From Gemmatimonadota bacterium (GTDB lineage Bacteria > Gemmatimonadota > Gemmatimonadetes > Longimicrobiales > Gaopeijiaceae), in NCBI GenBank assembly GCA_026706635.1, contig JAPOYJ010000062.1, positions 1 through 64,000 of the forward strand: a DNA stretch of 64,000 nt. Direction: 5' to 3'. A model generated the notes under the pieces. It saw only the letters and a program-made list of their open reading frames with translations. It was not told the DNA's origin and did no database searches. A program made the position numbers and the translations under genes. Positions 10,760-61,283 of this stretch are shown here, in pieces (position 1 is the stretch's first letter; every line of letters starts with the position of its first letter).

Positions 10760-13700
10760 TCAGGGTTGCGCTCCCCGCCGGCTGCGACGACCAGAGGCGA
10801 CCGCGACCAAGCCCCGGGAGCGGAGCGGCTCACCGACGCCCGACGACGGGCGACGAGGCGCCGAGGCGTAGGGCGGGGGCGGCGCTTCGTCCTCGATCTC
10901 GATCGTGTTCTCGGACTTCCGGAGCGCGCGCACGGTGTCTCCTTCGTCCGTGTCGGCGGTGTCGGCTGGCCAGGTCGTCACCTCGCCCACTAGGCGGTAG
11001 ACGCCAGGCGGCTCGTCGGGAAGGTCGTCGAAGGTGCAGACCTCCAGCTCCTTGTACGTCTCCGCCAGCTGCACCCACCCGGTGCCCTCCTGCCTTTGCC
11101 ATTCGGACCGGTGCACGGTGTAGACGGTGTCACCGTAGACGAACCCATCGAGCGGGAAGCACCCTGAGAAGCTCAGCCCCGCGAGGATCACCTTCCCCTC
11201 CTCGGTGATCTCGAGGTTGTCCCACGCCCCGTAGTCGGCGTGCGCGACCCGCACCTGGGCCTCCTGCGAGACCGAGAGGCCGTAGGGGTCGGTGGCGGTC
11301 ACGGTGAGGGTGGTGCTGTCCCACAGCGACGCCGTGTCGACCTCGACCGGCGCGGTCGTGACCACGCTGCCGTCGACGGACTCGACCTCGGCCACGCTGT
11401 CGTGCTCGGTCGAGGCGGAGTAGGTGAGCTCGTCGCCGTCGGGGTCGCTGAAGTAGTCGGAGACATCGAGGACCACCTTGCTCAGCGTGTCCGGTTCGGA
11501 CTCGCCTTCCTCGAACACTATGAAGAGGTCGTGGACTGGCAGAGTGTCCGCCACCACCGGAGGGTTGACTCCTATCGAGGCGCTCAGACTGTCGGATAGG
11601 CCTCCCGGATCGGTGGCGAGGACCGTGACGGTGGCCGCGCCGCCGCCCGTCGCCACGATCGTCACCTGGGAGCCTTCCGCCTCCGCCGTGGCCACCAGGT
11701 CGTCGCTGCTCCTGGCCGCGTAGGAGAGCTCGTCGTCGTCAGGGTCGGTGAAGAGGTCGGCGACATCCACCACGACGGTGTCGTCGGTGACGAGGATATG
11801 GTCCTCCAGCTCGCCCACGGCCCTCGGGGGATGGTTCTTCAAGATCGTGACCTCCACCTCCAGGGTGGCCGAGAGCCCGCCCGGATCGGTCGCCATGATC
11901 GAGACGGCCACGTCTCCAGATCCGACGGCCTCGATCTCGACCTCGGCGCCGTCGATCGTCGCGACCGCAAGCAGCGTGTCGGCGCTCGCGACCGCGTAGG
12001 AGAGCTCGTCGCCGTCGGGATCGGTGAAGTTGCCAGTGACGTCGAGCGTGACCGCCCTCCCGACCTTGAGCGTCTGCGAGGGTATCGGCTCCACCACCTC
12101 CGGCGCCCGGTTCACCACGGAGACCTGGGCACCCTGGGTGGCCGAGAGTCCGTCGGGGTCGGTCGCCGTGACCACGACCTCGGCCTCGCCCTCGCCGACC
12201 GCGCGCACTGTCATCACATCGCCGGCGACGCCGACCGTAGCCACGTCGACGTCCGAAGACCGGGCCACATAGGTAAGCTCGTCGCCGTCGGGGTCGGTGA
12301 AGAACTGCGATACGTCCTGGGCGGATTCCCCGCCCTTGAAGATCTCCACAGGCGCGATCTCGCCTACCGGTTCGGGTGCCCGGTTGGGCTGCTCGACGGT
12401 TACCGCGAAGCTCTGCTCGACCGACAACCCGCCAGGGTCGGCCGCCACGACCGCCACGGTCGCGACTCCCTCGCCCACCGTCGCCACGCTCAGGGAGGCA
12501 CCCGACGTGGAGACCGCGACCACGCCTTCGTCGGACGAGGTTGCCGTGTAGGAGAGCTCGTCGCCGTCGGGATCGCTGAAGTGATCCGACAGCTCCACCT
12601 CGACGGTATCGCCGACATGGATCTCGGCGTCGGAGATCGGGGTGGAGACGACGGGCGCGCGGTTCGGAACCGTCACGACGAAGCTCTGCTCGACCGACAG
12701 CCCGCCGGGGTCGGTGGCGGTGACGGTCACGCTTGCGGTACCCTGGCCTACGCCCGCCACGCTCAGGGCGGCGCCCGACGCGGATGCCGTCGCGACCTCG
12801 TCGTCGGACGAGGTTGCCGTGTAGGTAAGCTCGTCGCCGTCGGGATCGCTGAAGTGCTCCGACAGCTCCACCCCGACCGTATCGCCGACATGGAGCTCGG
12901 CGTCCGGGATCTCGCTGGACACCGAGGGCGCACGGTTGGGAACCGCCACGGCGAAGCTCTGCTCGACCGACAGCCCGCCGGGGTCGGTCGCGGTGACGGT
13001 CACGCTTGCGGAACCCTGGCCCACACCCGCCACTGTCAGGGAGGCACCCGACACGGATGCCGTCGCGACCTCGTCGTCGGACGAGGTCGCCGTGTAGGAG
13101 AGCTCGTCGCCGTCCGCGTCGGCGAAGTGCCCGGAGAGATCCACCTCGACCGTATCGCCAACATGGAGCTCGGTGTCCGGGATCTCGCTGGATACCGAGG
13201 GCGCACGGTTGGGAACCGCCACGGCGAAGCTCTGCTGTACCGACAGCCCACCGGGGTCGGTCGCGGTGACGGTCACGCTTGCGGAACCCTGGCCTACACC
13301 CGCCACGGTCATGGTAGCGCCCGACGCGGATGCCGTCGCGACATCGTCGTCGGACGAGGTTGCCGTGTAGGAGAGCTCGTCGCCGTCCTCGTCGGCGAAG
13401 TGCCCGGCGAGGTCCACCTCGACCGCATCGCCGATATGGAGCTCGGCGTCCGGGATCTGGCTCGAAACCGCAGGCGCGCGGTTAGGCACGGTTGCGGTGA
13501 AAGTCTGTCTGGCCGGGGGACCCTCGGCGTCGGTCGCGGTGACGGTAATGTCGGCGGTCCCCTGGGAGACTCCCGTCACCGTGAGCGATTGGCCGGAGAC
13601 GCTGGCCGTAGCCACCGCCGGAGTCCCCGAAGTCGCGTCGAAGGTGAGCGGGTCGTCGTCGGCGTCGCTGAAGTACTGGTCGAGCGAAAAGGTAGCCGTC

Positions 13701-13867
13701 TCCCCGATCACCACGCTCTGGCCGGGAATGCTGCCCGTCGCGACCGGCGCCTCATTCGAGTCACACCCAGCCGCCCACAGGGCCGCAGCCAACGCAAAGG
13801 TCTGGAGAGCCCGCCCCGGCTTCGAATCCAAATGTAAACTGTACATGACATTATGTAAAGTATTCAT
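10760..13867 (-). CDS. Large surface lipoprotein with nine Ig/cadherin-like repeats
   Basis: Up to 1035 aa. An export signal ends ALAAALWAAGC, so it is a probable lipoprotein. Nine tandem modules of about 85-91 aa follow (each starting NRAP-like, then VGDTVEVDL, HFADPDGDELSYTATSSDD, VSGASLTVAGVGQGSASVTVTATDPGGLS); the acidic DPDGDE segments look like calcium sites. Modules are 273 bp apart in the DNA. A unique C-terminal domain (about 890-990) has two cysteines, followed by an odd Arg/Ser/Pro-rich 40-residue tail. Probable role: adhesion or scaffolding at the surface (inference). The start is unclear: ATGs at 13867 and 13846 bracket a 13-bp palindrome and neither has a good ribosome site. Confidence 0.85.
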   Translation of the reverse strand: MNTLHNVMYSLHLDSKPGRALQTFALAAALWAAGCDSNEAPVATGSIPGQSVVIGETATFSLDQYFSDADDDPLTFDATSGTPAVATASVSGQSLTVTGVSQGTADITVTATDAEGPPARQTFTATVPNRAPAVSSQIPDAELHIGDAVEVDLAGHFADEDGDELSYTATSSDDDVATASASGATMTVAGVGQGSASVTVTATDPGGLSVQQSFAVAVPNRAPSVSSEIPDTELHVGDTVEVDLSGHFADADGDELSYTATSSDDEVATASVSGASLTVAGVGQGSASVTVTATDPGGLSVEQSFAVAVPNRAPSVSSEIPDAELHVGDTVGVELSEHFSDPDGDELTYTATSSDDEVATASASGAALSVAGVGQGTASVTVTATDPGGLSVEQSFVVTVPNRAPVVSTPISDAEIHVGDTVEVELSDHFSDPDGDELSYTATSSDEGVVAVSTSGASLSVATVGEGVATVAVVAADPGGLSVEQSFAVTVEQPNRAPEPVGEIAPVEIFKGGESAQDVSQFFTDPDGDELTYVARSSDVDVATVGVAGDVMTVRAVGEGEAEVVVTATDPDGLSATQGAQVSVVNRAPEVVEPIPSQTLKVGRAVTLDVTGNFTDPDGDELSYAVASADTLLAVATIDGAEVEIEAVGSGDVAVSIMATDPGGLSATLEVEVTILKNHPPRAVGELEDHILVTDDTVVVDVADLFTDPDDDELSYAARSSDDLVATAEAEGSQVTIVATGGGAATVTVLATDPGGLSDSLSASIGVNPPVVADTLPVHDLFIVFEEGESEPDTLSKVVLDVSDYFSDPDGDELTYSASTEHDSVAEVESVDGSVVTTAPVEVDTASLWDSTTLTVTATDPYGLSVSQEAQVRVAHADYGAWDNLEITEEGKVILAGLSFSGCFPLDGFVYGDTVYTVHRSEWQRQEGTGWVQLAETYKELEVCTFDDLPDEPPGVYRLVGEVTTWPADTADTDEGDTVRALRKSENTIEIEDEAPPPPYASAPRRPSSGVGEPLRSRGLVAVASGRRSRRGAQP
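12408..13500. repeat. Four near-identical 273-bp coding repeats
   Basis: The segment beginning AAGCTCTGCTCGACCGACA (or close variants) recurs at 12408, 12681, 12954 and 13227, exactly 273 bp (91 codons) apart, inside the Ig-repeat lipoprotein gene. The outer modules of the gene are more diverged. High identity at the DNA level suggests recent expansion or gene conversion, and such an array can change copy number by recombination. Confidence 0.85.
13846..13858. promoter_or_regulatory. 13-bp dyad (TGACAT-T-ATGTAA) at the lipoprotein start
   Basis: This AT-rich site overlaps the first codons of the Ig-repeat lipoprotein gene. It has one mismatch from the TTACAT-N-ATGTAA dyad seen at 36850 and 53153, and is embedded in further TGTAAA/TTTACA half sites (13831-13871). 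I infer a protein-binding site controlling this gene; the possible regulator is unknown. Confidence 0.45.
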
Positions 13868-17518: not shown

Positions 17519-17757
17519 GCAGTCCGCCGCGGGTACCGGCACCGTAAGCCACGGGTTGTCCACGGGCTGCCGCAGTCCGTGGGCAGACTCGCGCGAGCAC
17601 CGGGAGGGGCGAAGCGCCAGCGGTCCACGGGTACGGGCGCTGTAAACCACGGATTACAAATTGTAAAGAGTAAATTACAACACTGCACAGGCTAGCGAAG
17701 CGGTCCAGCGGGGATGCAGCGCTGCTCCGCCGCGGGAGCTTGTCCACGCGCTGCTAG
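17517..17757. repeat. Compound CTAG-bounded inverted-repeat elements between ssb and the sigma gene
   Basis: Element ends occur in quick succession. A CAGTCCGCCGCGGG end directly follows the ssb stop. A facing end TTGTCCACGGGCTG (about 17557-17570) is followed by CAGTCCGTGGGCAG (about 17573), then by inner sequence matching other copies (GCGAGCACCGGGAGGGGCG; GCGAAGCGGTCCAGCG). It closes with TTGTCCACGCGCTG and CTAG (17754-17757). That last CTAG forms the TAG stop of the sigma gene. An AT-rich TGTAAA/TTACA island lies at 17641-17681 inside it. Confidence 0.7.
17654..17666. promoter_or_regulatory. 13-bp palindrome TTACAA-A-TTGTAA inside the element
   Basis: A perfect dyad in an AT-rich island of the repeat element between ssb and the sigma gene, flanked by further TGTAAA and TTACA half sites. 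It has the same size and half-site layout as the sites at 23854, 36850 and 53153. Function not known; it may be a binding site for a regulator or for the protein that mobilised the element. Confidence 0.4.
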
Positions 17758-18614
17758 TTCGTCCTCCAGAAACCGGAGAGAGATTCACCCTGGGGGCTGT
17801 CGCGCAGCTTCTCGAAGGCGCGGTTGCGGATCTGGCGGATGCGCTCCCGGGTGACGCCGAGCAGCGAGCCGATCTCCTCCAGGGTGCGCTCCTCGCCGTC
17901 GTCGAGGCCGTAGTAGAGGTAGAGGATCTTGCGTTCGCGCTCGGTCAGGTAGCTGTCGAACATCGTCTCGAGGTAGCTGCGGCGCGCAACGGCCTCCACG
18001 TCGTCCTCGATCTCGGCGGCGTCGGCCCCGGCGAAGCGCTCGCCGAAGTTGGCGCTGTCGCGGTCCCCGCGGTCCATCGGAGCGTCCAGGCTGAGCTCGG
18101 CAGCGGCCACGCGCCGGAGAGCCCGCACCGTCTCGATCGGCTCGTCCATCGTGCGGGCGAGCTCCTGGTCGGTGGGGGTCCTGCCCAGCTGCTGCGTGAG
18201 CACGGTGCTTGTCCGAGCGAGGCGCGCCAGGTTCGAGTTCTGATTTAGCGGAATCCTGACCGACCGGGTCTGCTCGGCGAGCGCCTGCAGGACGGTCTGG
18301 CGGATCCACCACACCGCGTAGGAAATGAACTTGACCCCCTTTTCGGGGTCGAACTTCTTGACCGCCTTAAGAAGCCCCTCGTTGCCGATGCAGACGAGCT
18401 CGGCCAGGCCGAGACCCCGACCCTGGTACTTCTTCACATAGGAGATCACAAAGCGAAGGTTGGCGGTCACCAGCCGCTCGGCCGCCTCCTTGTCGCCCGT
18501 TCGGGCTCGCCTCGCGAGTGCCCTCTCCTCCTCCGGATTGGCTATGAGTGGGTAGCGCTCCACATCTTGGAGATACTGATCGAACGAATCCAGGCCTCGC
18601 GAAGCTCCGAACAA
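17754..18614 (-). CDS. Sigma-70 family RNA polymerase sigma factor (RpoD/SigA-like, short)
   Basis: 286 aa from a TTG start (18614) six bases after AGGAGG. It contains region 1.2 (SFDQYLQDVERYPLIANPEEERALARRARTGD), region 2 with the core-binding and -10 recognition helices (ANLRFVISYVKKYQGRGLGLAELVCIGNEGLLKAVKKFDPEKGVKFISYAVWWIRQTVLQAL), region 3 and a region 4 helix-turn-helix (RTLEEIGSLLGVTRERIRQIRNRAFEKLR). There is no region 1.1, as in Bacteroidota-type primary sigma factors and group 2 factors, so it could be either the housekeeping factor or a paralogue. The TAG stop lies in the end of a repeat element. A TTGACT-17-TACCGT promoter lies about 120 bases upstream. Confidence 0.93.
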   Translation of the reverse strand: MFGASRGLDSFDQYLQDVERYPLIANPEEERALARRARTGDKEAAERLVTANLRFVISYVKKYQGRGLGLAELVCIGNEGLLKAVKKFDPEKGVKFISYAVWWIRQTVLQALAEQTRSVRIPLNQNSNLARLARTSTVLTQQLGRTPTDQELARTMDEPIETVRALRRVAAAELSLDAPMDRGDRDSANFGERFAGADAAEIEDDVEAVARRSYLETMFDSYLTERERKILYLYYGLDDGEERTLEEIGSLLGVTRERIRQIRNRAFEKLRDSPQGESLSGFWRTN

Positions 18615-18779: not shown

Positions 18780-18918
18780 AGAGGCGACGGCCGCCGGCCC
18801 TTCGTCGCGCCCTGCCAGCGGGAGGCTTCGCCGGTCGCGGTGCTCGTCCGGGCCTGTCCACGACCTCCGGCGCTTCGCCGCCCTCGGTGGTCGCGGAAGT
18901 TACACCACGGACTGCTAG
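18780..18918. repeat. Partial CTAG-bounded element at the end of the Omp85 gene
   Basis: The inner sequence (CCCTTCGTCGCGCCCTGCCAG, then GGTCGCGGTGCTCGTC) matches the right half of the copy at 36.9 kb. The terminal CCACGGACTG followed by CTAG (18915-18918) is a standard right end. The CTAG provides the TAG stop of the Omp85-like gene. No left end is visible. Confidence 0.6.
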
Positions 18919-20762
18919 CGCCCCAGAAGGGCGCCGAAGGGACTGGGGGTGCGACCCCGGCGGGCCCGCCGATCACCGATTCGGTCGAGCAGGCTGATCG
19001 CGTCGACACCCACCCGAAACTGGAGCTTCCCGAGCCCGCCGTCCTCGATCGGCGCCGCGAAGTCCAGGCGCATCGCGCGTCTGGCGCCGGCTGGCGCTCC
19101 GATCCGGAGGCCCGCACCAGCCGCGAGCTTCAGCCCCGTGTCCACTCCGAAGGGCGTCCCGTCCCCCAACCCCGCACCCGCATCGACGAAGAAGGCCAGC
19201 CCCAGATCCACCTGCTCCCGAAATGGGCCATCCAGGAGCACCCGGTCCTCCAGGTGCGCCACCACCCGACGGGCCACCGGAAGCGCGTCGCGGTCGTAGC
19301 CACGAAGGGCGTGGGGGCCGCCCATGTTCACCTGGAATGGCAGCGAGCTCCGCCAGGCGCCAACGCCCGTCAGAGCCAGGAGGAGCGTGTGCCGGGGAGC
19401 AGCTCCGGGTCGCCAGTAGAGGTGGGTCCCAGTCTCGGCGAGCAGGTCGCGCACGGCACCCGAGCCCGCGCTTCCCAGGACCGGCAGCGCCGCCCCCACC
19501 TCGAGCGTCGAGTTGACCACCCAGCGCCCCCCGGCGGCACCGAGGAAGAGCGAGAGTGTGCCCCGCACCTCGTGGAACCTGCCCTCCGAGGAGAGCCACC
19601 TCCCGCCGCCCACCGTGGTGCCGACCGTCGCCAGAAGCTGTGCGCCGACACGGACCTCCTGGTCGTTTCGAAGAGCATCCAGCCCCGCCACGGTCACATG
19701 CCTGACGCTGCGCCTCGCGGCGAGCACGTTCAGGCGGAGCGCCCTCCTACCGAGCACGTGCGGCTCGACCGCCTCCGCCGTAGCCGCATCCGCGCGCTTC
19801 GGGTTGTCGAAGTCGGAGTCCACCACAACCATGACGCTGTCTGGGTAGCCGTCGAAGGTCACCTCCTCCCAGGAGACCCCCGCACCTAGCACCGACAGCC
19901 TGCCGGGAGCGCCGAACCGCCTGGAGATGGCGGCGATCGCCGTGCGGGACTGAATCGGCAGGTTAACATGGCCGAAGTCCGTCCCCTCGGGCGCACTGTA
20001 CCGGAATTGGTCTTCCCGCATCGAGTACGATTCGGTCAGCGCCCAGGAACCGACCTCGCCCACATACGGATAGGTCAGCGACTGGTAGATGAAGCCGCCC
20101 GTACGGGTCCTGCCGACGCCTGCCCGCGCGTCGAGCCGTGTGCCAGGCAGCTGCAGGGCGCTCAGCCGGATCCCCAGGTCGCGGCGCTCGTCCTGCTCGG
20201 TCGCGTAGGCGCCGAGGAGGACGCCCACGCCCAGGAAGTTCTCCTCGTCGAAGGAGGCCTGCGTGATTCGCAGGCCCTCGTCGTACTCCCATCGCACATC
20301 CAGCTTGAGCGACCACCGATCACGGGTCTCGGCAACCAGGTGCACCTCCTCGTCGCCCACATGCACGGGGTAGACGTGCGCGTCCGCCATGATGGGAAGC
20401 TCCCGGAGGAGGCGCTGCGACTCCGCCGCGAGGAGCGGGTCGAAGCAGTGGCCCTCGTCCAGCAGCAGCTCGCGGCGGATAAAGCCTTCGCGCGTGCGGT
20501 GATGCAGTAGATTGGCGGTCGAACGCGCCCAGTCCCCCGCACGGGCCACCAACCCTCGGGAGCCCACCGAGTCGATCGCTGGGTAGTAGACGGGGTGGTT
20601 GTCGACGAAGACCCGCGCGACGACAGGCCCATCGCAGCTCCCATCCTCCGCGGCGCCGACGGGAGTGGATTCCTGCGCCGACGCGCCCGAATGGACGGCG
20701 GCGCCCAGGCCGACCAGGACGGTCGCCAGGTGGCGCGGGGAGGCGGCGAGATTCGTCGTCAC
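18915..20762 (-). CDS. Omp85/BamA-superfamily outer-membrane protein
   Basis: 615 aa with a signal peptide ending GASAQ. A periplasmic part (about 45-170) resembles one or two POTRA-like modules (VVARVFVDNHPVYYPAIDS, FIRRELLLDEGHCFDPLLAAESQRLLREL). The rest is a beta-barrel with alternating strands, and MGGPHALRGYDRDALP near residue 485 carries the LRGY motif of the Omp85 L6 loop. It ends VDAISLLDRIGDRRARRGRTPSPFGALLGR rather than with an aromatic residue. It is shorter than BamA and probably a surface-antigen or TamA-like member; the cargo is unknown. It is transcribed divergently from pckA. Confidence 0.82.
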   Translation of the reverse strand: MTTNLAASPRHLATVLVGLGAAVHSGASAQESTPVGAAEDGSCDGPVVARVFVDNHPVYYPAIDSVGSRGLVARAGDWARSTANLLHHRTREGFIRRELLLDEGHCFDPLLAAESQRLLRELPIMADAHVYPVHVGDEEVHLVAETRDRWSLKLDVRWEYDEGLRITQASFDEENFLGVGVLLGAYATEQDERRDLGIRLSALQLPGTRLDARAGVGRTRTGGFIYQSLTYPYVGEVGSWALTESYSMREDQFRYSAPEGTDFGHVNLPIQSRTAIAAISRRFGAPGRLSVLGAGVSWEEVTFDGYPDSVMVVVDSDFDNPKRADAATAEAVEPHVLGRRALRLNVLAARRSVRHVTVAGLDALRNDQEVRVGAQLLATVGTTVGGGRWLSSEGRFHEVRGTLSLFLGAAGGRWVVNSTLEVGAALPVLGSAGSGAVRDLLAETGTHLYWRPGAAPRHTLLLALTGVGAWRSSLPFQVNMGGPHALRGYDRDALPVARRVVAHLEDRVLLDGPFREQVDLGLAFFVDAGAGLGDGTPFGVDTGLKLAAGAGLRIGAPAGARRAMRLDFAAPIEDGGLGKLQFRVGVDAISLLDRIGDRRARRGRTPSPFGALLGR

Positions 20763-35154: not shown

Positions 35155-35215
35155 ACGGTTCGTGCTCCGAGTCAAGTCCATCGACAAAATGCACCCCGAA
35201 TCTGGCCACGGGCTG

Positions 35216-36652
35216 CTAGAGCGGTCCGTCGGCCCACGGGCCCCAGATGGCGTACGTCGCGCTCGGCCGTGGCTCCTCGTCTCTGCGGCCTCCCTGCACA
35301 TTGAGGAACATCACCCGTCCGTCGGGGCTGAAGCACGCTCCGGCAAACTCACCCGGCTGCTCGTCCCCATCCTCGTGCGGCGACCTCACCATGTTCACGA
35401 TCCGACCCTCGCGGTCGAGACCCCGAACGTACTGCTCGCCGCTCCCGTCCTCGCACATCACGAGCCCACCCCTCGGCGTCACGACGATGTTGTCGGGGCT
35501 GTCGAGCACATCGTGCGACGGCGACTCGAAGACGAGCTCCAGCTCGCCCCCATCTTCCGAAAGGGGCCGATAGTGGAAGACCTGTCCCGCCCCGGCGTCT
35601 CCCCCGTTCGTCGAGACGACGTAGATGCCGTCGTCGCCGAAGAAGGCCCCCTCGAGGCGGGCGAAGCGGGCGGCGCCCTTGGCCACCCCCTGCCTGAAGA
35701 CGGCCAGACGGTCCGCCTCGGCGTCCGGAGGATCGGGATCGTCGATGTCGACCCAGTGAACCGGCAGTGTGGTGCCGGCCTCCTGGCCCCGCGCCGTCAG
35801 GTACCCTGGCCTCCCGTTGACGGCCATCATCTGGAGCCTTCCCCCGGCCGCGAGCACCTCCGGGTCGTTGGGGAGGAACCGGTATAGGCCGGCGCCCGGC
35901 AGCCTATCGGGCACGTACCAGGTGTCCTCGGTCTCGTACACCACCCCGGTGGCCGGGTCGATCGCCACCGCCTCGTGCACAAAGCGCCCCATCGCCTTCA
36001 GCGGAACCGGATCCACCGGCCCGGTTGCGCCGGTCGGCACTTCGAATACGTACCCGTGCGGCCTGGCAAACCCGGCCTCGGCGCCCCAGGTGCTCTCCTC
36101 GCACGACAGCCAGCTCCCCCAAGGCGTCGTGCCGCCTGCGCAGTTCACGACCGTGCCGGCGAGCGATACGAACTCGTCAACCAGCTCGACCGCGAGGTCG
36201 CCCTCGCCGTCCTCCGAGATTCTCACCTCGAGCGACGTGGTCCCGCCGCTCGCCAGGGGGTCGTACGACGGATCTCCAATCGCCGCCCCGCTGCCCGCGC
36301 CGTCCACCATCTCGTGATTCCGGATCAGGCGTACATTGCCGTTTGGGAGCGGAAACGCGGCCATGCCGTCGAAGGCGTTGGGCACCGTCAGCCCGTCTCG
36401 CACTGCCGACCGCTCGCCGCCGGTGCTGATCCGCACGCACCTGAATCCCGTCGGGATCTCCAGCTCGGAGCACTCGGCGCTCCGCGCCAGCGGGCCGTAC
36501 GGCTCGATGAAGTCACCTAGGCCACGCCTGCGCGTCGAACCAGCCGCCGGCCCATTCCATCTCGCCAGTCCGGCTAGGGAGGGAGCGAGGACTGCGACCC
36601 CTCCGGCCGATGCGAGGCTCCTGAGAAACACCCTGCGCTCCATCGAAGACAT
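35216..36652 (-). CDS. PhoX-family (DUF839) secreted phosphatase-like protein
   Basis: 478 aa from ATG 36652 (36643 is possible). A twin-arginine-type signal (RRVFLRSLASAGGVAVLAPSLAGLA) suggests export folded, with cofactor. The body has PhoX features: IPTGFRCVRISTGGE, NHEMVDG, TTSLEVRI, NCAGGTTPWGSWLSCEES, GYVFEVP, MGRFVHEAVAIDPATGVVYETED, FFGDDGIYVVSTNGGDAGAGQVF and SPDNIVVTPRGGLVMCEDG. PhoX enzymes are calcium/iron-dependent alkaline phosphatases, but many DUF839 members are unstudied, so phosphatase activity is inferred. Its TAG stop is formed by the CTAG of an element end (GGCCACGGGCTGCTAG, 35204-35219). Confidence 0.85.
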   Translation of the reverse strand: MSSMERRVFLRSLASAGGVAVLAPSLAGLARWNGPAAGSTRRRGLGDFIEPYGPLARSAECSELEIPTGFRCVRISTGGERSAVRDGLTVPNAFDGMAAFPLPNGNVRLIRNHEMVDGAGSGAAIGDPSYDPLASGGTTSLEVRISEDGEGDLAVELVDEFVSLAGTVVNCAGGTTPWGSWLSCEESTWGAEAGFARPHGYVFEVPTGATGPVDPVPLKAMGRFVHEAVAIDPATGVVYETEDTWYVPDRLPGAGLYRFLPNDPEVLAAGGRLQMMAVNGRPGYLTARGQEAGTTLPVHWVDIDDPDPPDAEADRLAVFRQGVAKGAARFARLEGAFFGDDGIYVVSTNGGDAGAGQVFHYRPLSEDGGELELVFESPSHDVLDSPDNIVVTPRGGLVMCEDGSGEQYVRGLDREGRIVNMVRSPHEDGDEQPGEFAGACFSPDGRVMFLNVQGGRRDEEPRPSATYAIWGPWADGPL

Positions 36653-36755: not shown

Positions 36756-37009
36756 CTAGCAGCCCGTGGACAAAATCCCCCCGGCATTCGAACGGCGATG
36801 CATCCGCGCTGGCCGCTTCGCTTCACCGGTCCACGGTGTAAAGAATACATTACATCATGTAATGTCCGCTATACATTTTGCCACTCCCAAGGCTGCGCTC
36901 TGCGTTGCTCCTCGGGAGAATAGCGCCGCTATTCTCCCTTCGTCGCGCCTTGCCAGCCCGGCGCCTCGCCGCTCTCGGTGCTCGCGGGGCTCTATCCACG
37001 GACTGCTAG
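36756..37009. repeat. Complete CTAG-bounded inverted-repeat element (reference copy)
   Basis: 254 bp. CTAG, then CAGCCCGTGGACAA at the left; TATCCACGGACTG, then CTAG at the right, so the ends are inverted and the CTAG is repeated. The inside has a left arm GCATTCGAACGGCGATGCAT, an AT island with a TTACATCATGTAA dyad (36850) and a small hairpin GAATAGCGCCGCTATTC followed by CTTCGTCGCGCCTTGCCAG. There is no open reading frame of note. The structure is that of a non-autonomous mobile repeat (MITE); an IS5-type transposase using a YTAR target would fit, as an inference. Confidence 0.75.
36850..36862. promoter_or_regulatory. Perfect palindrome TTACAT-C-ATGTAA inside the complete element
   Basis: The palindrome extends to CATTACATCATGTAATG (17 bp, perfect). 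It sits in the AT-rich island of the mobile repeat, among TGTAAAG and ATACATT sequences. The same dyad stands in the promoter region of the hydrolase gene at 53153. Confidence 0.5.
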
Positions 37010-37156
37010 CCATGTTTCCCAATGGCGGCATTGCGTTTACATTGGCGTCCAGGTTGCCGACGCGGCCTCTTCGCGCGCTGCGACGGACGGGGGCATCGAC
37101 GACAGAGGCGGCATCGGGCCGCCATGCGCCCCCGCACCCTCATCGAGGCGAACTGC

Positions 37157-37516
37157 ATGGATATTGAGATCGGTTGGTCGAGAGACTCGGGAGTCCTGGT
37201 TGCGAAGCCCGTCGGTCGCGTCTACAGCGCCCACTACATCGAGTGGCAGGCGGCGCTGATGTCGGGAATCGAGCCGGACGACCGCGCCATGGTGCTGGAC
37301 TGCGAAGAGGTCACGTACCTGAGCAGCGCCGGCCTGAGAGTCGTGCTCGAGACCTCGCAGCGATTCGAGGGACCTGGGCGCGCCTTCGCGCTCAGCCGGC
37401 CGACGAAGGGCGTCCGCAAGGTGCTCGCGGCAAGCGGCTTCGACAAGATCCTCCCGGTCTTCGACTCCGCCGACAAGGCGATCCAGGCCGTCGGCGAGCA
37501 GGCCGCCGCCAGCTAG
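37157..37516 (+). CDS. STAS-domain protein, anti-sigma factor antagonist type
   Basis: 119 aa from ATG 37157. It matches SpoIIAA/RsbV-like STAS domains: an N-terminal strand pair (GVLVAKPVGRVYSAHYIEWQAALMSGI), VLDCEEVTYLSSAGLRVVLETSQRF with the Ser-Ser-Ala-Gly-Leu motif whose first or second serine is phosphorylated in relatives, and SGFDKILPVFDSADKAIQAV. In known systems the unphosphorylated form releases a sigma factor from an anti-sigma kinase; no kinase or phosphatase lies nearby. The TAG stop lies in the left end (CTAGCAGCCCGCGGAC) of a repeat element. Confidence 0.88.
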   Translation: MDIEIGWSRDSGVLVAKPVGRVYSAHYIEWQAALMSGIEPDDRAMVLDCEEVTYLSSAGLRVVLETSQRFEGPGRAFALSRPTKGVRKVLAASGFDKILPVFDSADKAIQAVGEQAAAS

Positions 37517-37671
37517 CAGCCCGCGGACACGGCGCACCCGCGCAGCCGCTTTGGGAACGCCTAGCTCGTCCCCGTAGCGAGCCACCGCGGACTGTTGAGC
37601 GCCGGGAACGGCGGGTCGCTCCGCCCGCGGTCAGCCTCGGCAGCCCGGGAGGTTAGCCCACCGGCTGCTAG
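37513..37671. repeat. CTAG-bounded element whose two ends form the stops of two convergent genes
   Basis: 159 bp. Left CTAG (37513-37516) with CAGCCCGCGGACAC is the stop region of the STAS gene. Right GGTTAGCCCACCGGCTG with CTAG (37668-37671) is the stop region of the TonB receptor gene on the other strand. The inner sequence is unlike that of the reference copy, apart from another end-like CCACCGCGGACTG at about 37580. Confidence 0.7.
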
Positions 37672-40600
37672 CCCGCGGGCCGCCAGGTCACCGTCATCTT
37701 GACGCGCCTCCCCTTCGGGCTGTGGGTGAAGCCGTCGTACGACTGCTCCCAGAAGACGAGCGGCGGCGGGCTGTCAAGGACGTTCAGGATCGACAGGGCG
37801 ACGTTCATTCCGCTGCGCGACCGCCGCATCATGCTGAGGTCCACGGTGACGAAGCCGTTGATGGCGGGCTCGATGCGGGGATCGACACCAGGGCCCCGCT
37901 CGCAGTGGTCGGGGAGTTTCTTGGGATCCGCAAACGCCTCGTTGCAGTACCCGGACACCAGGTTAGCGTAGCTCACGGCGCTGTAGTCGCCTATGTGGTA
38001 GCCGAGCCAGAAGCGCGACTTCAGCTCGGGAAGGGGCGGGGCGATGGGGTTGTACCAGTTGAGCTGGCCGATGGCGCTCAGGCTGTCGAATATCTGGATG
38101 TCGGTGTCGGGCACGTTCAGCGGCTTTACGAAGAACTTCGCCAGAGACGTTCCGCTAGTGCCCAGCGAGACCACCCTGGCGCTGCGGGGAGCGCCGTCCG
38201 CCCTGCCGCCTACAGGGAAGCGGGCGCTAAGGTGCCAGTCGAGCCCCGAGAGCTCGATCCCGGGCCAGTTGACGTAGCTCACCTCGATCCTCTCCAACGC
38301 ACTCACGTCGCAGGTGCCGGTGCCGGGCCCGTCGGGGCAGGTGACGAGGTCCTTGACCGCCTCGCGCGAGCCGCCCCCGGCCGCGTAGAGAGCAGTCACG
38401 CCTCCTGCCGGCAGCACGTCGATGACATCCCTGAAGTCGTAGCTCCAGTAGTCGACCGTGGCGCGCAGGCGTGGCAGGCGCACGGTGGTCCCGAAGTTGT
38501 ACGTCAGGGCTCGCTCGGGCAGCAGGTCGCTGTCGCCCTTCGTGTCCATCGCCTTGTAGATTCCCGCCTCGGCAACGTACTCGAGCGATGTGAAGGGGTC
38601 CTCGTTCAGGTCGTCCACCGACGGCGTCCGCATCGTCGTCTGAACGGAGCCGCGCAGCGCGAGCTCGGGGGTGATCTCCATTCGCACGGCGGCCTTGGGG
38701 TCGAAGCTGCTCACCGGACCGTGCGACTCGAAGTTGGCCGCGATCTGGGCGTGGATGCGGTCGCCGAGGTCCAGCTGCGTCTCGGCGAAGAGGCGGTGCA
38801 CGGTCTGATCGTCGCTGTAGGCGAAGTGGCCAGAGGTGAAGGTGAAGGCTCCGGCCTTCTCCAAGCAATCCTTGTCGCCGATGACCGGACAGGGGTTGAT
38901 CGACAGGTCGCCGGGCTCGTTGGGGTCGCCGGAGACGGCCACCCGACGGAACTGGTACCCGAGGGCGTAGCGGCCGAGGCCGCCCGGCATGGAGCCTCGG
39001 GCCATCAGGTCTCCGACGATTAGGTTAGCGGCGTTGTCCAGGTTGACCTCCTCGTTGATCCAGTCCAGGAGCTCCTCGCTGTTGGCGAGCTCGGACACGT
39101 AGTCGGGGTTGTCCTGATCCAGGTACCGGGCGCCCGGCTGGGCGGAGCGCTGGTTGGCGTTGCTGAAGGGGTTGTAGTACATGCAGGCCCCCTCGCCGGG
39201 AGCGGCCCCGTTCAGAGCGCCGAGCGCCATCCGCGACGGGCTGTCGGGGTCGACGACCACATCCACGCCGCACTCCGGCCCCCCGAATCCCCGAAAGGCC
39301 AGGAACTTCCGGTAGGCGTACTCGGCCGGGAGATTCCAGTTGCCCGTGGACCGGGAGTAGCCGACGGCGGCCTCCAACGACTCCAGGGCGCTGCCGGGCT
39401 CGCCGAGATCGCGGGTGAGCGACGCGGAGAAGCGCTGCGTGCCCGTGCCGCGGTCCAGCGCCCGTCCGGGACCGGTGTTCCCCACGAGGCGGCCATAGAA
39501 GTACCAGTCGTCCTCCAGGCAGGCCTCCGTCGAGGCGAAACCCGCGCTCGCCCCGTGAACGCGGCAGAACTCCCGCCGGCCCGGGTGGCCGGGCTCGAGG
39601 ACCTGGGCACCGTTGTACGGCGATATCGGCGGAAACGACGGCGTCGTGATCCAGCCCGGGGTGGTCGCATCCGCCCAGAGCGCTTCGGCGTGGTACCGGG
39701 TCCCGGTCGAGAGCTCTCCGTTCAGCTCGCCGAAGACCCGGAGATGGCGGGTCTCCTGGATGAGGTTGTCCCAGGGCTGGTACCTGAAGCGGCAGGTCTC
39801 CCCCTCCACATGGCCGCCGAAGGCCTCGCACTGCGGATCGACGAAGACCCCGCCCCACCCGCCGAACTGCGCATCCTGAAGCGCCGCCGAGAACTCCTCC
39901 TTCGACTCGTCGCCGGTCAGCTTCGGAAAGAGGAAGGCGCCTGGGTTTCCTGTGTAGGACCATCCGCCGGCACCCTCGAAACCGCGCAGCGCCCAGTCGC
40001 GCTCTTCGGGCCCAAGCGACTGCGAGAGTGCGGCCTCGGCCGAGAGGACGGCGTGGGCGCCCTCGCCCAGGCGTTTGCCCCAGATGCCTCCCACCCGCGA
40101 CTCGCCCGATCCTGCGAACCACTCGTGCGAGGCGTTCACCTCCGCACCCTCGAAGTCCTTGCGGGTCAGGAAGTTGACAACGCCCGCCACCGCGTCGGAG
40201 CCGTACACGGCCGAGGCACCCTCCTTGACGACCTCGATCCTCTCCAGCGCGATACTTGGGAAGGCGTTCACATCGACGAAGCGCCCCCCCGCAAGCCGCA
40301 CGGGCACGTAGACCTGTCTGCGGCCGTTCAGCAGCACCAGGGTGCGGGACGGGCCGATCCCCCGGAGGTTCACGCTGGCCGAGGCCTCGGAGACCGCGCT
40401 GGCCGGGCGGGTCGTGTACCACCCCTGCCGGTCCCCGAGCACCCCCGCGCTAGAGGCGAGGTTCCGGAAGAAGTCCACGGCGGTCGGGGAGCCCTGCTCC
40501 TGCATCGTCCTTCGGCCCGCCACCGCCACCGAGTACGGTGCTTCCACCGGCGAGTCAGAGAATGCGGTACCGGTAACCACGAGCTCCTCGAGGTGGAAGG

Positions 40601-41000
40601 CCGTGCGACCGAGCGCCACCTCGACTCCGACCACACCTCCCGCCGTCACCTCCACGGTGTGGCTCTCGTCGGCGTATCCGGACATGCGGACGAGAATCGC
40701 GTGGGTGCCCGGCGGCAGCCCGTCGAGCAGAAACACGCCCTCTGCCGAGCTCCGCGCCTCGATGCCGAGCTCGCGGACGAAGACCTCCGCTCCCGCGAGC
40801 GGCGCACCCGTCTCCGCATCGTGGACGCTCCCCTCCACGCTGCCGCTCTCCTGGGCGTGAGCCACCCTCGGCACTCCGACTCCCACCCCACACGCGGAGA
40901 GGAGCAGGATCCCAGCCGAGAGCCGGAAGCGGTTCTTTGCATTCCTACGGGCTTGAATCCCTGACCAGAGTGGCGACAGACCATGGCATGAATGTGGCAC
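37668..41000 (-). CDS. TonB-dependent receptor with N-terminal carboxypeptidase-regulatory domain
   Basis: 1110 aa from a GTG start preceded by AAAGG. A signal peptide ends VAHAQ. A CarboxypepD_reg-like module (GSVEGSVHDAETGAPLAGAEVFV..., about 55-130) and a TonB-box-like LEELVVTGTAF precede the plug domain (about 150-270: VNLRGIGPSRTLVLLNGRRQVYVPV, IERIEVVKEGASAVYGSDAVAGVVNFLTRKD). The rest is a 22-strand barrel. It should take up a large ligand using TonB; the substrate is unknown, and its end (MTVTWRPAG) lacks the usual terminal aromatic. TGTAA-type half sites (41000-41045) lie right upstream. Its stop is part of the element at 37513-37671. Confidence 0.92.
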   Translation of the reverse strand: MPHSCHGLSPLWSGIQARRNAKNRFRLSAGILLLSACGVGVGVPRVAHAQESGSVEGSVHDAETGAPLAGAEVFVRELGIEARSSAEGVFLLDGLPPGTHAILVRMSGYADESHTVEVTAGGVVGVEVALGRTAFHLEELVVTGTAFSDSPVEAPYSVAVAGRRTMQEQGSPTAVDFFRNLASSAGVLGDRQGWYTTRPASAVSEASASVNLRGIGPSRTLVLLNGRRQVYVPVRLAGGRFVDVNAFPSIALERIEVVKEGASAVYGSDAVAGVVNFLTRKDFEGAEVNASHEWFAGSGESRVGGIWGKRLGEGAHAVLSAEAALSQSLGPEERDWALRGFEGAGGWSYTGNPGAFLFPKLTGDESKEEFSAALQDAQFGGWGGVFVDPQCEAFGGHVEGETCRFRYQPWDNLIQETRHLRVFGELNGELSTGTRYHAEALWADATTPGWITTPSFPPISPYNGAQVLEPGHPGRREFCRVHGASAGFASTEACLEDDWYFYGRLVGNTGPGRALDRGTGTQRFSASLTRDLGEPGSALESLEAAVGYSRSTGNWNLPAEYAYRKFLAFRGFGGPECGVDVVVDPDSPSRMALGALNGAAPGEGACMYYNPFSNANQRSAQPGARYLDQDNPDYVSELANSEELLDWINEEVNLDNAANLIVGDLMARGSMPGGLGRYALGYQFRRVAVSGDPNEPGDLSINPCPVIGDKDCLEKAGAFTFTSGHFAYSDDQTVHRLFAETQLDLGDRIHAQIAANFESHGPVSSFDPKAAVRMEITPELALRGSVQTTMRTPSVDDLNEDPFTSLEYVAEAGIYKAMDTKGDSDLLPERALTYNFGTTVRLPRLRATVDYWSYDFRDVIDVLPAGGVTALYAAGGGSREAVKDLVTCPDGPGTGTCDVSALERIEVSYVNWPGIELSGLDWHLSARFPVGGRADGAPRSARVVSLGTSGTSLAKFFVKPLNVPDTDIQIFDSLSAIGQLNWYNPIAPPLPELKSRFWLGYHIGDYSAVSYANLVSGYCNEAFADPKKLPDHCERGPGVDPRIEPAINGFVTVDLSMMRRSRSGMNVALSILNVLDSPPPLVFWEQSYDGFTHSPKGRRVKMTVTWRPAG

Positions 41001-42125: not shown

Positions 42126-44816
42126 ATGCGAGATGCGACGATTTCACCAGTGAGCCGGTCGCTATCGGTACCGTGCGCCCACAGCTGGCTTGCGGCCACC
42201 ATTGCCCTCGCTCTGCCGCAGGCGGCCGTTGGCCAGGGTCCCAGGAGTCCGTGGATGAACCCTGACGATAGTCCTCCACCTCCCACACTCGAGGCCCACC
42301 GACTGAGCGGTCCTCCGCCGCAGGTCGACGGCGTGCTCGGGGAATCCGACTGGCAAAGCGCCGCCGTGGCCCAGGAGTTCGTGGTCTTCGAGCCCGACGA
42401 GGGTGCCGTACCCACCCAGCCGACCGAGGCGCGGGTGCTCTACGGGCCCGAAGCGCTCTATGTGGGGATCCGCGCCTTCGACACGGCACCGGATTCGATC
42501 GTGCGGAGGCTCGCGCGGCGCGACGACCGCCCCCACTCGGACTGGGTCGACGTGGTGATCGACAGCTACCTGGATCGACGCACGGCGTTCCGATTCGGAG
42601 TCAATCCGGCCGGAGTCAAGTCGGATGCGTACATGTTCGACGACACGAACGAGGACGACTCATGGGACGCGGTGTGGGAGGTCGCCACCCAGACCGACGA
42701 CCTCGGATGGACCGCCGAGTTCCGTATCCCGTACTCGCAGCTCAGCTTCGACGGCGCGGTTCGCCAGACCTGGGGGCTCAACTTCGTGCGCTATGTCGGC
42801 CGCCATCTGGAGACGAGCCTCTGGGCACCTATATCGCGCGGCGACGGCGCCATGGTGTCGCGCTTCGGAAAGCTGGTGGGTCTGGACGGCATCTCGCCCC
42901 CGATGCGCCTCGAGGTGACGCCCTACTCGCTGGCCAGCGTGCAGGCGGCCCCAGGGAGCGCCGACGACCCCTTCCACGCGGACCGCGACTTCGCGTCCAT
43001 GCTCGGCGCCGACGCCAAGTACGGGATCACCTCCGACCTGACGCTCGACCTGACGGTGAATCCGGACTTCGGGCAGGTGGAGGCCGACCCGGCCCGGGTC
43101 AACCTAAGCGCCTTCGAGACCTTCCTCGACGAGCGGCGCCCATTCTTCGTCGAGGGGGCGAACATCTTCGCCTTCGGCTTCTCGCCGGGTGACGACGGCG
43201 AGGACGAGGGCCTATTCTATTCGCGGAGGATCGGCAGGGCCCCTCGGGGAGCGGCATCGGGCGCGGCCTACGCCGATGTGCCCCGTCAGACCCGGATCCT
43301 CGGGGCGCTCAAGCTGTCGGGGAAGACAGACTCCGGGTGGTCGCTCGGGCTTCTGCACGCCGTCACCCGCCGGGAGGATGCCCGGCTGGCCGACGCCAGC
43401 GCGGGGCGCCTGGAGGACCAGCTCGTGGAGCCCTCGGCGCACTACGGAGTGGCGAGGGCAATAAAGGACCTCCGTGGCGGCCGGAGCGCGGTCGGCCTCA
43501 TCTCCACCTGGAGCCGGCGCGATGCCGCGGCCGCCGAGGAGCTGGCGATCCACTCCGATGCCTATGCCTTTGGCGCGGATGGTCGGCACCGATTCGGAGG
43601 CGACCGGTTCGTGCTCAGGGCCTATCTGCTGGGCTCGACGGTTCGAGGTTCGGCAGCGGCGATCGAACGAACGCAGAGATCCCCGGCACGCTACTTCCAG
43701 CGCCCCGACGCCGATCACCTCGAGCTCGACCCCACGCGGAGCTCGCTCAGCGGATGGGCGGCGTCGACGATGTTCGGCAAGATCTCCGGCGGGTACTGGC
43801 GCTTCGCGGCGGGCGCCATGGCCCGTTCACCCGGATTCGATGCGAACGACCTGGGGTTCATGCGCGAAACCGACTTTGTGTCGCCCTACATCTGGATCGG
43901 ATTCCAGCACTACCGGCCGAGCGGCCCCTTTCAGCGCTGGAATGTGAACCTGAATGGCTGGATGCCCCGGAGTCTGGGCGGCGACCGCTACCAGATGGGC
44001 GGCAACATCAACGGGAACTTCACCCTTAGGAGCTTCTGGCGCGCCTACGCGGGGGTGAGGGCCACCAGCTGGGGACTGAGCAACACGGCGCTCCGAGGCG
44101 GGCCGCTCCTGCGGGTGGACCCGTCGGCGGGCGGCTGGCTTGGTTTCGGGTCCGACTACCGCAAGGACCTGCAGCTCCGGGTCGGTGGCAACTGGGGGAT
44201 TACGGCTGCGTCGGACTCGAGGCGCTACGGAGTCAACGCCACTTTGAGGTGGCGGCCCTCGTCGCGGGCAACGCTTGCGGCAGGCCCGTTTCTGAACTGG
44301 AGCGAGGAGGGTGCCCAGTGGGTGGGGCGCTACGACCTGGGGGACGCGCACTACCTCTTCGCCCGGCTCGCGCACACGACCACGGGGATGACGCTGCGGG
44401 CGGACTGGACCTTCTCGCCCGAACTGTCGCTACAGCTCTACGCGCAGCCCTTCGTCTCGGCGGGGTCGTACGACGGGTACAGGCAGGTGGTGGAGCCGCG
44501 CGCGGCGGCCTTCGCCGACCGCTTCGCATCGATCGACGTCCGGACCGACGCAGATGGGGACCTCGGTGCCGACATCGATGGCGACGGCACCCCCGAGACG
44601 ATCTACGCGCCCGATTTCAACTTCAAGCAGTTCCGGTCGAACGCCGTGCTCCGGTGGGAGTATCGGCCAGGATCGACCCTCTTCGCCGTATGGTCGCAGG
44701 GGCGCGACCACTACGCCTCCGACGGCGGCTTTTCGCTGGGCAGCGACCTCCGGACGCTGATGGAGCAGTCGGCCGACAACGTCCTCATGGTGAAGGCGAG
44801 CTACTGGATCGGGTAG
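42126..44816 (+). CDS. DUF5916 outer-membrane protein with CBM9-like N-terminal domain
   Basis: 896 aa from ATG 42126, five bases after GGGAGG. A signal peptide ends AAVGQ. Residues about 60-240 are a family-9 carbohydrate-binding-like sandwich (PQVDGVLGESDWQSAAVAQEFVVFEP, ARVLYGPEALYVGIRAFD, WDAVWEVATQTDDLGWTAEFRIPYSQL). The DUF5916 part follows (YSLASVQAAPGS..., LTVNPDFGQVEADPARVNLSAFETFLDERRPFFVEGANIF) and is barrel-like up to the end. Such proteins are common in Bacteroidota and Gemmatimonadota, with no proven role. Its TAG stop is followed at once by CCAGCAGTCCGTGGATAA, an element end. Confidence 0.88.
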   Translation: MRDATISPVSRSLSVPCAHSWLAATIALALPQAAVGQGPRSPWMNPDDSPPPPTLEAHRLSGPPPQVDGVLGESDWQSAAVAQEFVVFEPDEGAVPTQPTEARVLYGPEALYVGIRAFDTAPDSIVRRLARRDDRPHSDWVDVVIDSYLDRRTAFRFGVNPAGVKSDAYMFDDTNEDDSWDAVWEVATQTDDLGWTAEFRIPYSQLSFDGAVRQTWGLNFVRYVGRHLETSLWAPISRGDGAMVSRFGKLVGLDGISPPMRLEVTPYSLASVQAAPGSADDPFHADRDFASMLGADAKYGITSDLTLDLTVNPDFGQVEADPARVNLSAFETFLDERRPFFVEGANIFAFGFSPGDDGEDEGLFYSRRIGRAPRGAASGAAYADVPRQTRILGALKLSGKTDSGWSLGLLHAVTRREDARLADASAGRLEDQLVEPSAHYGVARAIKDLRGGRSAVGLISTWSRRDAAAAEELAIHSDAYAFGADGRHRFGGDRFVLRAYLLGSTVRGSAAAIERTQRSPARYFQRPDADHLELDPTRSSLSGWAASTMFGKISGGYWRFAAGAMARSPGFDANDLGFMRETDFVSPYIWIGFQHYRPSGPFQRWNVNLNGWMPRSLGGDRYQMGGNINGNFTLRSFWRAYAGVRATSWGLSNTALRGGPLLRVDPSAGGWLGFGSDYRKDLQLRVGGNWGITAASDSRRYGVNATLRWRPSSRATLAAGPFLNWSEEGAQWVGRYDLGDAHYLFARLAHTTTGMTLRADWTFSPELSLQLYAQPFVSAGSYDGYRQVVEPRAAAFADRFASIDVRTDADGDLGADIDGDGTPETIYAPDFNFKQFRSNAVLRWEYRPGSTLFAVWSQGRDHYASDGGFSLGSDLRTLMEQSADNVLMVKASYWIG

Positions 44817-44867
44817 CCAGCAGTCCGTGGATAATCTCGCGAGCGAAGTGGTTCAGCCAGCTGCTAG
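44817..44867. repeat. Minimal 51-bp element between convergent stops
   Basis: CAGTCCGTGGATAATCTCGC at the left (right after the DUF5916 stop) and AGCCAGCTG with CTAG at the right (44864-44867). The right CTAG is the stop of the DUF4340 gene. There is no inner part. It is a likely remnant or minimal form of the dispersed element, with a diverged right arm. Confidence 0.6.
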
Positions 44868-49480: not shown

Positions 49481-49811
49481 CTGCGTTGGTGGGCGAGGCG
49501 TGGTCGTCGGTTCTCGTGATGCCTGCGTACAGCGCGCCGCCCGAACCCAGCGCGAGGTTGGCCGGACGCCGACAAAGCTAGCGGTCCGCGGTTAATCTCG
49601 CCCGCGCACCGAGAGGGGCGCTGGGCTGGGCTGGCAAGGCGCTTCGCAGCGCGAATAGTAGCACTATTCGTGCAAGAAGCAACGCAGAGCGAAGCGGTCC
49701 AGCGCGGATGCAGCGCGCCTCGAATGCCGGGGGAGGTTGTCCACGGGCCGCTAGGCGACCGGCGCAAATCAACCCCGGCCTCCAGCGCCGGGCGTGTCCC
49801 CCCGGAGCGCC
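49481..49811. other. Intergenic region upstream of the exporter operon
   Basis: 331 bases, most of it occupied by the repeat element at 49578-49754. The remaining bases (49481-49577) should hold the promoter of the exporter operon; I see no consensus boxes. No gene is recognised. Confidence 0.5.
49578..49754. repeat. Complete CTAG-bounded inverted-repeat element, second full copy
   Basis: 177 bp. CTAG then CGGTCCGCGGTTAA at the left; TTGTCCACGGGCCG then CTAG at the right. Relative to the copy at 36756 it lies in the opposite orientation: the inner parts GCAAGGCGCTTCGC, GAATAGTAGCACTATTC (hairpin), AACGCAGAGCGAAGCGGTCC and GCGCCTCGAATGCC correspond to its reverse complement. It lacks the AT-rich island of the 36.8 kb copy, so the island is a variable inner segment. 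No coding capacity. Confidence 0.75.
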
Positions 49812-59412: not shown

Positions 59413-60005
59413 CGCCCTTCTTCGCACCCGGTTTCCCCGTCTCGCGGCGGGGTGTGCGTTGGCGAGGCCGTCTCGTCATAACCAGAAGTGGGTCAGTGTG
59501 ACCTTGGGCTGCGCCGGGCTGGTGATGACGAGCCCGCCGTTGGCGGGTCAGCCAGCCCATCGAGATGTGGTGGTCGTTGGTCGGTCAGCCTTGGGGCACC
59601 CAGCGGGGTAGCGGGGTGCCCCAAAGCTGGACCCCTGCGACTCGGTGGTTCTGGTGACCAAGTGCCCACCGGAGGTCTCGTGGTTCACCGGCGGTGCGCT
59701 CTGACCGTCCGTCAAGGTCGGCGCATCCTATTGCGGCCCGCGTCACAGTCGTGAGCGCTGACTCCAGCCAGCCCGGTCTTCCTCGTCTACCCCCTTCGCT
59801 GCGCCTGCGAGCGGCGTCTGGACGACCGGAACTATCTGGCCGTGTACGTTGACGGAGGTCACTTCGGGGTTCATCACATGCTGTGGCACACGGCGTGGGA
59901 CCCGAGGGGAACAGGTGGATTCACGGGATCCCGTTAACGCTGGCCGTAGGGCACCCGCCCCTTGATCCTGCGTCCGGGGCGGGTGCTGGCTACGACTATC
60001 CAGTG
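59413..60005. other. Non-coding region with hairpins and a repeated segment
   Basis: 593 bases without a convincing gene. GTCAGTGTGACCTTGGGCTG (59491 on) recurs at 60306 with few changes. TTGGGGCACC...GGTGCCCCAA (59590-59623) and GCACCCGCCCC...GGGGCGGGTGC (about 59949-59986) are hairpins; the second lies just past the end of the truncated gene and may terminate it. Base composition varies. Confidence 0.5.
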
Positions 60006-60305
60006 CTAGTGTGCTATGCTATGAATAAAGAGCAGTTCCAAGGGGAGTTTGCAGGCTTCCGAGTCGGTGAGATAGGGAAAATTACCAAAATTACCAATGG
60101 TTTTTCTGTAAACCCAGCATTTCTGGCCGGGTTCGGGCCCGTAACCGACCCAGTCTGTCCACGACGCATGCACGTGCCTGTAGCCATCGACATACTGCAC
60201 GAGCTCCAGCCGGACCTCGTAATTCTCTTCGTATTTGACGAGCGGACGGTACGTCATTAGCCAGTACGGACGGTCGTTGTCACCATGATTGACATATATA
60301 AGTAG
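60006..60305 (-). pseudogene. 5'-truncated copy of the neighbouring lipoprotein gene
   Basis: Read on the minus strand, VNHGDNDRPYWLMTYRPLV...VDGYRHVHASWTDWVGYGPEPGQKCWVYRK...YLTDSEACKLPLELLF matches the last 100 residues of the intact gene at 60448-61158 (VNHDDDGGQYWLMTYSPVV...CWVYYRR...LRDSEACKIPLKLHS). The two cysteines and DSEACK are conserved. There is no start or signal sequence; the match ends at about 60305, where the segment repeated from 59491 begins. It is a likely remnant of a tandem duplication, although an internal ATG (60257) could still give 83 residues. Confidence 0.7.
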
Positions 60306-60447
60306 GTCAGTGCGACCTTGGGCTGCGTCGGGCTGGCGGCGAGGCCAGCCCTATCGAGCGAGCGGGTCGCTGTCTTCCTAGGTCCGACAACGCCGACAGC
60401 AGCGAACGTGCGTTGGCACTGGGTGTGGCTGTGTGCAAGTTGTCGGG

Positions 60448-61265: not shown

Positions 61266-61283
61266 CTGACTTACCGCTGAGGT

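Follow-up and report, generated by a model that had tools for sequence, protein, structure and literature searches.

How can one short intergenic element supply the stop codons of both genes that converge on it? The window analysed here, a 64,000-nucleotide stretch from a Gemmatimonadota bacterium (contig JAPOYJ010000062.1), raises this question at 37513-37671, where 159 bp separate a plus-strand ORF (37022-37516), termed STAS-like because the name STAS is the label of an earlier note on this DNA, from a TonB receptor ORF (37668-41000) with Pfam matches to PF00593 and PF07715. The layout described in that note, a CTAG on each edge with the TAG stop of the adjoining gene inside it, is borne out (Table 1). 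Both edges match the inverted termini (GCAGYCCGTGGAYAA) that bound a multicopy repeat family, and the interior matches complete copies of the family no better than shuffled sequences do. Judged from the sequence, the stretch has the appearance of an eroded mobile repeat of small size, of which only the ends are recognisable.

Table 1. Features of the window that bear on the repeat family and on neighbouring stop codons
Feature	Position	Strand	Remarks
Left-edge CTAG	37513..37516	+	TAG 37514-37516 is the stop of the STAS-like gene 37022-37516
Left terminal repeat GCAGCCCGCGGACAC	37516..37530	+	2/15 mismatches to family end; L type
Right terminal repeat GCAGCCGGTGGGCTA	37654..37668	-	3/15 mismatches; L type
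Right-edge CTAG	37668..37671	-	TAG read on the minus strand is the stop of the TonB receptor gene 37668-41000
Apparent decayed member of the repeat family	37513..37671	.	Interior unrecognisable
TAG stop of DUF5916 gene	44814..44816	+	Within GTAG, 3 nt outside the repeat end (CCAGCAGTCCGTGGATAA...)
R-arm fragment	44818..44846	+	28.9 bits, E 6.7e-8 in window
CTAG with DUF4340 stop	44864..44867	-	Orthologous stops in G014 and G012 are element ends
Complete family copy	36756..37009	+	L and R arms; CTA and TAG flanks
Complete family copy	49578..49754	-	CTA and TAG flanks
Element end on TAG stop of gene 18915-20762	18899..18918	-	
Element end on TAG stop of gene 35216-36643	35202..35219	-	
Element end on TAG stop of gene 17754-18563	17740..17757	-	

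With both edges as queries, dozens of short matches were recovered elsewhere in the same genome. Their common word, AGCAGYCCGTGGAYAA, occurs 462 times in its 2.81 Mb with at most two mismatches, against 9 matches for the reversed pattern. In the 22 sister genomes of the genus the end matches number 36-394, several of these counts lying little above the genomes' own controls of 5-28, and in 17 genomes sampled elsewhere in the family and order they drop to control level. The repeat family is thus frequent in some members of the genus, with only background counts in those 17 genomes outside it. Aligned ends fall into two arm types, L (CTAGCAGCCCGTGGACAAACCTCCCACGGCATTCGAG) and R (CTAGCAGTCCGTGGATAATCTCGCGCGAGCACCGAG), and the complete copies in the genome of the window (n=40) combine them as L+R in 38 cases and as R+R in two. 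Sizes are narrowly distributed: 14 of 15 stretches chosen for paired ends in the sister genome G012 span 248-249 bp, and G004 contains two main size classes of about 176 and 251 bp, TA flanks included. Short, multicopy and bounded by terminal inverted repeats, the elements have the general form of MITEs. R arms also occur in tandem with a 48-bp step, at four places in the genome of the window (contig C13, 12180/12228 and 102985/103033; C30, 35806/35854; C38, 50136/50184). In G014, an element end often lies 30-60 bases into a contig, a pattern suggestive of assembly breaks at recent, near-identical copies.

Copies are present at some orthologous sites and absent from others, as expected of MITEs. 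An 11-kb stretch of G004 matches G001, G016 and G019 at 84-91% and is interrupted at two copies that all three lack, the flanks of the empty-site junctions being too diverged for base-level alignment or for reading a duplication. At the first of these sites the G004 gene ends on the TAG of the element (...DTGPAVSLT), and its relatives in G001 (...DTGPADRP) and G019 (...DTGPADELGQA) end with TGA, as does that in G016, read by eye. The end on the element lies within -2 to +1 residues of those of the element-free relatives.

Where do the elements insert? Genes were called with a simple codon model in 462.5 kb of the genome of the window (382 genes), and potential sites were scored for occupancy by an element end. 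Outside genes CTAG is strongly favoured, with 47 of 189 sites occupied as compared with 15 of 1,514 other TA sites; these figures comprise CTAG at stops (16/51) and between genes (31/138), and other TAG stops (7/110) and other TA between genes (8/1,404). Within genes, 6 of 198 CTAGs and 3 of 4,572 other TAs are occupied. Between CTAGs at stops and other CTAGs, occupancy does not differ significantly (p 0.26), and the two ends of each insertion inflate the intergenic class in this comparison. When complete copies with TA on both sides are removed in silico and the flanks rejoined, the site reads CTAG in 17 of 30 cases. Left and right flanks agree in 32 of 92 pairs against 31.5 after shuffling, and over 4 bp in 20 of 86 pairs against 16.1; such a lack of excess would be expected of a target that hardly varies, and the flanks are nearly invariant (TA and CTAG). 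Pairs entered these counts when two neighbouring ends had few mismatches and lay less than 330 bp from each other. Any duplication may be 2 or 4 bp long (TA or CTAG).

The ends coincide with stop codons at single-base resolution. Within the 462.5 kb, called genes end in 200 TGA, 161 TAG and 21 TAA codons, and an element end (at most four mismatches) lies exactly on 23 of the 161 TAG stops and on none of the 221 others; the reversed-pattern control falls on 0 of 382 stops. Measured from element ends, 21 stops lie at offset 0, and no other offset from -60 to +90 holds more than two (ends within 300 bases of a stretch end are excluded from this count and from the neighbour counts below). Coding frames that reach a TA-flanked end are in the frame of its TAG in 37 cases and in another frame in two (20 and 2 in the genome of the window, 9 and 0 in G014, G021 and G003 combined, 8 and 0 in G004). 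At ends without a TA flank that an open frame traverses, 29 are in the TAG frame and 8 and 2 in the other frames; these may represent stops since lost, or else intragenic look-alikes. Pfam was searched with ten of the 23 element-ended genes. One carries a UvrD C-terminal tudor domain at residues 708-750 of 757, a phosphofructokinase and an ammonium transporter have complete domains, and for the remainder the matches are indecisive as to completeness. CTAG itself is depleted in the window (68 occurrences, 117 expected). TAG accounts for a share of the called stops (161/382) that is high for a G+C-rich genome.

Did the element create these protein ends? The earlier note had named, as the result that would speak against its reading, homologues of both genes ending at the same residues with other stops, and this is largely what we found: homologues end at nearly the same residues, many with TGA. 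Relatives of the receptor were compared at 17 loci, 13 of which belong to Gemmatimonadota assemblies: their ends differ from that of the protein in the window by -2 to +3 residues, 10 being at the same residue, with 12 TGA and 5 TAG stops and no element end on any of the 17. Among homologues of the STAS-like protein (29 rows, paralogues included) 20 end within -6 to +1 residues; their stops are 16 TAG and 13 TGA, and one, in G005, ends on an element. DUF4340, whose gene borders a second such spacer in the window, has the same terminal residue in 17 of 22 sister genomes (24 rows less two duplicates), with 12 TAG and 10 TGA stops over the 22, and in G014 and G012 the TAG stop itself is the element end. 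Because homologues end at nearly the same residues, and often with TGA, these comparisons indicate that the protein ends predate the element, which did not define them. In none of the 29 loci fetched from the genus was the receptor gene seen beside the STAS-like gene; an alignment of the same junction in relatives, the check suggested in the earlier note, is thus impossible.

What moves the family? Five sister genomes (G005, G007, G014, G015 and G018) each contain, in the fetched loci, a 1.5-kb insertion sequence with ends of the type GCAGNCCGTGGANAA, that is, an autonomous element with the ends of the MITEs. In all five two-ended copies the left flank is CTA and the right flank TAG; the latter holds for seven of seven when the right-end-only copies L312 and L184 (CTGC/TAG) are counted. 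The transposase frame has no internal stop and remains open through the right end of the element to the flanking TAG. In G005 and G015 it comprises 486 codons, and the two proteins share 72% identity and remain collinear up to their final codon, with a poorly conserved tail (48 of 100 positions identical over residues 387-486). The copies in G018 and G014 are open for 461 and 493 codons and apparently frameshifted, as seen from split alignments, and that in G007 is open for its final 47 codons only. Both intact transposases contain DUF772 (PF05598) and DDE (PF01609) domains above cut-off. The nearest NCBIfam model is IS1182 (NF033551), yet its cut-off of 270 bits exceeds even the best of the four proteins scored (196.3, 175.7, 78.7 and 26.5 bits), and we therefore call the element only IS1182-like. 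Genomes matching PF01609 number 15 of the 23 in the genus; the genome of the window has no PF01609 gene, and the sequence searched there yielded no relative of the transposase. The MITEs and the IS1182-like element have only about 15 bp of end in common, as judged by eye, and for this reason we infer, rather than observe, that the MITEs are moved by the IS1182-like transposase. Within the IS1182 family, as far as the consulted parts of the reports go, ISPse1 is tabled with a 4-bp duplication (PMC3281130), and IS1272 reportedly takes the place of inverted repeats and makes no duplication (PMC5678879).

Outside the genus, a stop borrowed from the target was not seen in the five distant plasmid relatives of the transposase that we inspected, of 717 records with a match: their annotated stops are four TGA and one TAG, none at a recognised element border, and in the only relative whose ends were recognised the stop of the gene falls 36 nt within the element. 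A distant relative on a plasmid of Rhodovastum atsumiense (L319) has ends GCAGCCCGTTGACGAA beside TA, so that related ends reach another phylum. In G001 (L184:1975-2000), an IS1182-like copy abuts an IS630 copy (end GTGTTGTGTCC) with one TA in common, and the TAG that stops its transposase consists of this TA and the first G of the IS630 copy.

From the features observed directly, namely the family, its ends and target preference, the coincidence with stops, the older protein ends, the absent copies and the matching insertion sequence, we propose the following model. Members of the family would insert at TA, mostly within CTAG, and leave CTAG, or at least TA, on either side. Because a CTAG target contains TAG and survives insertion, a gene whose stop lies in it would keep that stop: the gene-facing copy would still read TAG, and the protein end would be unchanged. 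Insertions on stop CTAGs would be tolerated and those within genes lost. The likely mover would be the 1.5-kb IS1182-like insertion sequence of the sister genomes, whose ends and CTA and TAG flanks agree with those of the family. At the convergent pair, a single insertion may have entered one CTAG that held, or nearly held, both stops. We consider this model, taken as a whole, probable. If the copy at 37513-37671 were taken out together with one TA or CTAG, CCAGCTAGCCCGCGG would be left, where both genes stop within the same CTAG, and one insertion into such a site would be the simplest history for the two stops together. The earlier note had suggested that the element inserted at one stop and captured the other. 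The first half stands in kind, in that the edges belong to a CTAG-targeting mobile repeat family; the capture is unneeded, because the palindromic CTAG can accommodate the TAG stops of two convergent genes at once.

The alternative that survives best is that two separate insertions, one on the CTAG stop of each gene, decayed and were partly deleted into the present 159 bp. Both ends of the copy are L-like, unlike those of the complete copies in the same genome, and its interior is unlike a complete copy; two insertions followed by decay fit the L-like ends equally well. Element ends on single stops are common (23 genes), and among 50 convergent gene pairs the STAS-like/TonB receptor pair is the only one with an element end on both stops. 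No pair among the 50 shares a single CTAG today, and the shared-target step is for that reason unobserved. Against this, two hits would be required as well as deletion of the outer partner ends, and a single C/T change at the fifth base would give a mutated R end the look of an L end. We regard the two-insertion history as doubtful, albeit a serious competitor; at 37513-37671, both it and the shared CTAG site have to be inferred rather than directly demonstrated.

Could the ends instead be kept by selection, with the element serving as a bidirectional transcription terminator or 3' end, as the earlier note had also considered? The edges form an inverted repeat able to pair as RNA, and 65 of 172 ends adjoin the 3' end of a gene, but 56 adjoin gene starts (the other 51 lie inside called genes), so that the family is not restricted to 3' ends, nor are stops significantly preferred over other CTAGs. 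On neither strand does the element contain a hairpin followed by a T run; no Rfam family matched, and folding is weak (z -1.1 and -2.1). Terminator function, end placement, Rfam and folding thus lend this proposal no positive support, and we judge it improbable. In our best reading, selection for a terminator is not needed to explain ends on stops.

Derivation as MITEs from an IS630 (Tc1/mariner) element that prefers TA in CTAG is more improbable still. The TA flanks and the CTAG preference would suit it, and such a preference of IS630 is reportedly the title of a published paper. As a partner, IS630 was rejected: PF13358 is found in 7 of the 23 genomes of the genus, and the surrounding ends (of the type GTGTAGTGTCC) differ from GCAGYCCGTGGAYAA. 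Least probable of all is that the elements are REPs or REPINs moved by a RAYT transposase, for although GTAG-tagged REPs often supply TAG stops (PMC3733652, consulted in part), full copies here are about 176 or 251 bp long with L and R arms, and the RAYT partner was rejected, PF01797 being matched in 0 of 23 genomes of the genus.

The model of insertion into CTAG can be held against the 51-bp spacer at 44817-44867, which the earlier note had read as a repeat of the same layout between the DUF5916 and DUF4340 genes. This holds for the DUF4340 stop, which lies in CTAG; the DUF5916 stop lies in a GTAG outside the repeat. On the DUF4340 side the match to the repeat end covers CTAGCAG only, and a repeat end is not recognisable there. 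In none of 24 loci of the genus does a DUF5916 gene lie within the 1.5-kb flanks of DUF4340.

How does the family compare with known repeats? The following rests on the consulted parts of the cited reports. MITEPsy1 of Pseudomonas syringae is a 100-bp relative of an IS5-family element, has 18-nt inverted ends and inserts at CTAG or YTAA, which it duplicates (PMC3189936). It resembles the present family as an inverted-end element inserting at CTAG; it differs in its few copies, its ends and its host, and the text consulted draws no link to stop codons (PMC3189936). IS5 of E. coli duplicates the tetranucleotide YTAR, most commonly CTAG (15 of 24 listed sites; PMC5493358), and thus shares the target, but differs in transposase group, ends and host. 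The termini of GTAG-tagged REPs "often provide" a TAG stop to flanking ORFs, and in the two species diagrammed most of those in convergent pairs are no more than 20 bp from either 3' end (PMC3733652); they are, however, 20-40-bp palindromes, with a RAYT partner that the present genus lacks. In Streptococcus pneumoniae, 36 CDSs have their stop encoded by a BOX repeat, truncation being not strongly evidenced (PMC3049150); BOX repeats share the supply of stops and differ in sequence, host and proposed mover.

The stop-preserving effect is therefore already known from other repeats; new to the literature we searched are the family, its host and its likely mover. Our searches turned up no paper describing IS1182 elements whose stop is taken from CTAG. 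Transposase stops created by insertion are reportedly mentioned in a review of insertion sequences. The proposed model gives a compact account of mobile repeats that lie exactly on stops, with no terminator role or recognition of gene ends required, and it points to a candidate mover with a stop codon beyond its own borders, which makes the idea testable. More tentatively, and as something we would not yet bet on, we speculate that targeting CTAG is a shared-stop strategy of the IS1182-like lineage: the transposase would borrow the TAG of its target, the same TAG, read from outside, would spare neighbouring genes, and hundreds of derivatives would pile up on gene ends, perhaps thereby helping to maintain TAG at 42% of stops in a G+C-rich genome.

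The window contains other repeats as well. A minus-strand ORF at 10760-13867 is built of about eight or nine tandem repeats of roughly 273 bp, a 37-bp direct repeat (92% identity) occurs at 59486-59522 and 60300-60336, and a 17-bp tandem repeat, AGGAGGCCCCCGTCTCT, occupies 61188-61272.
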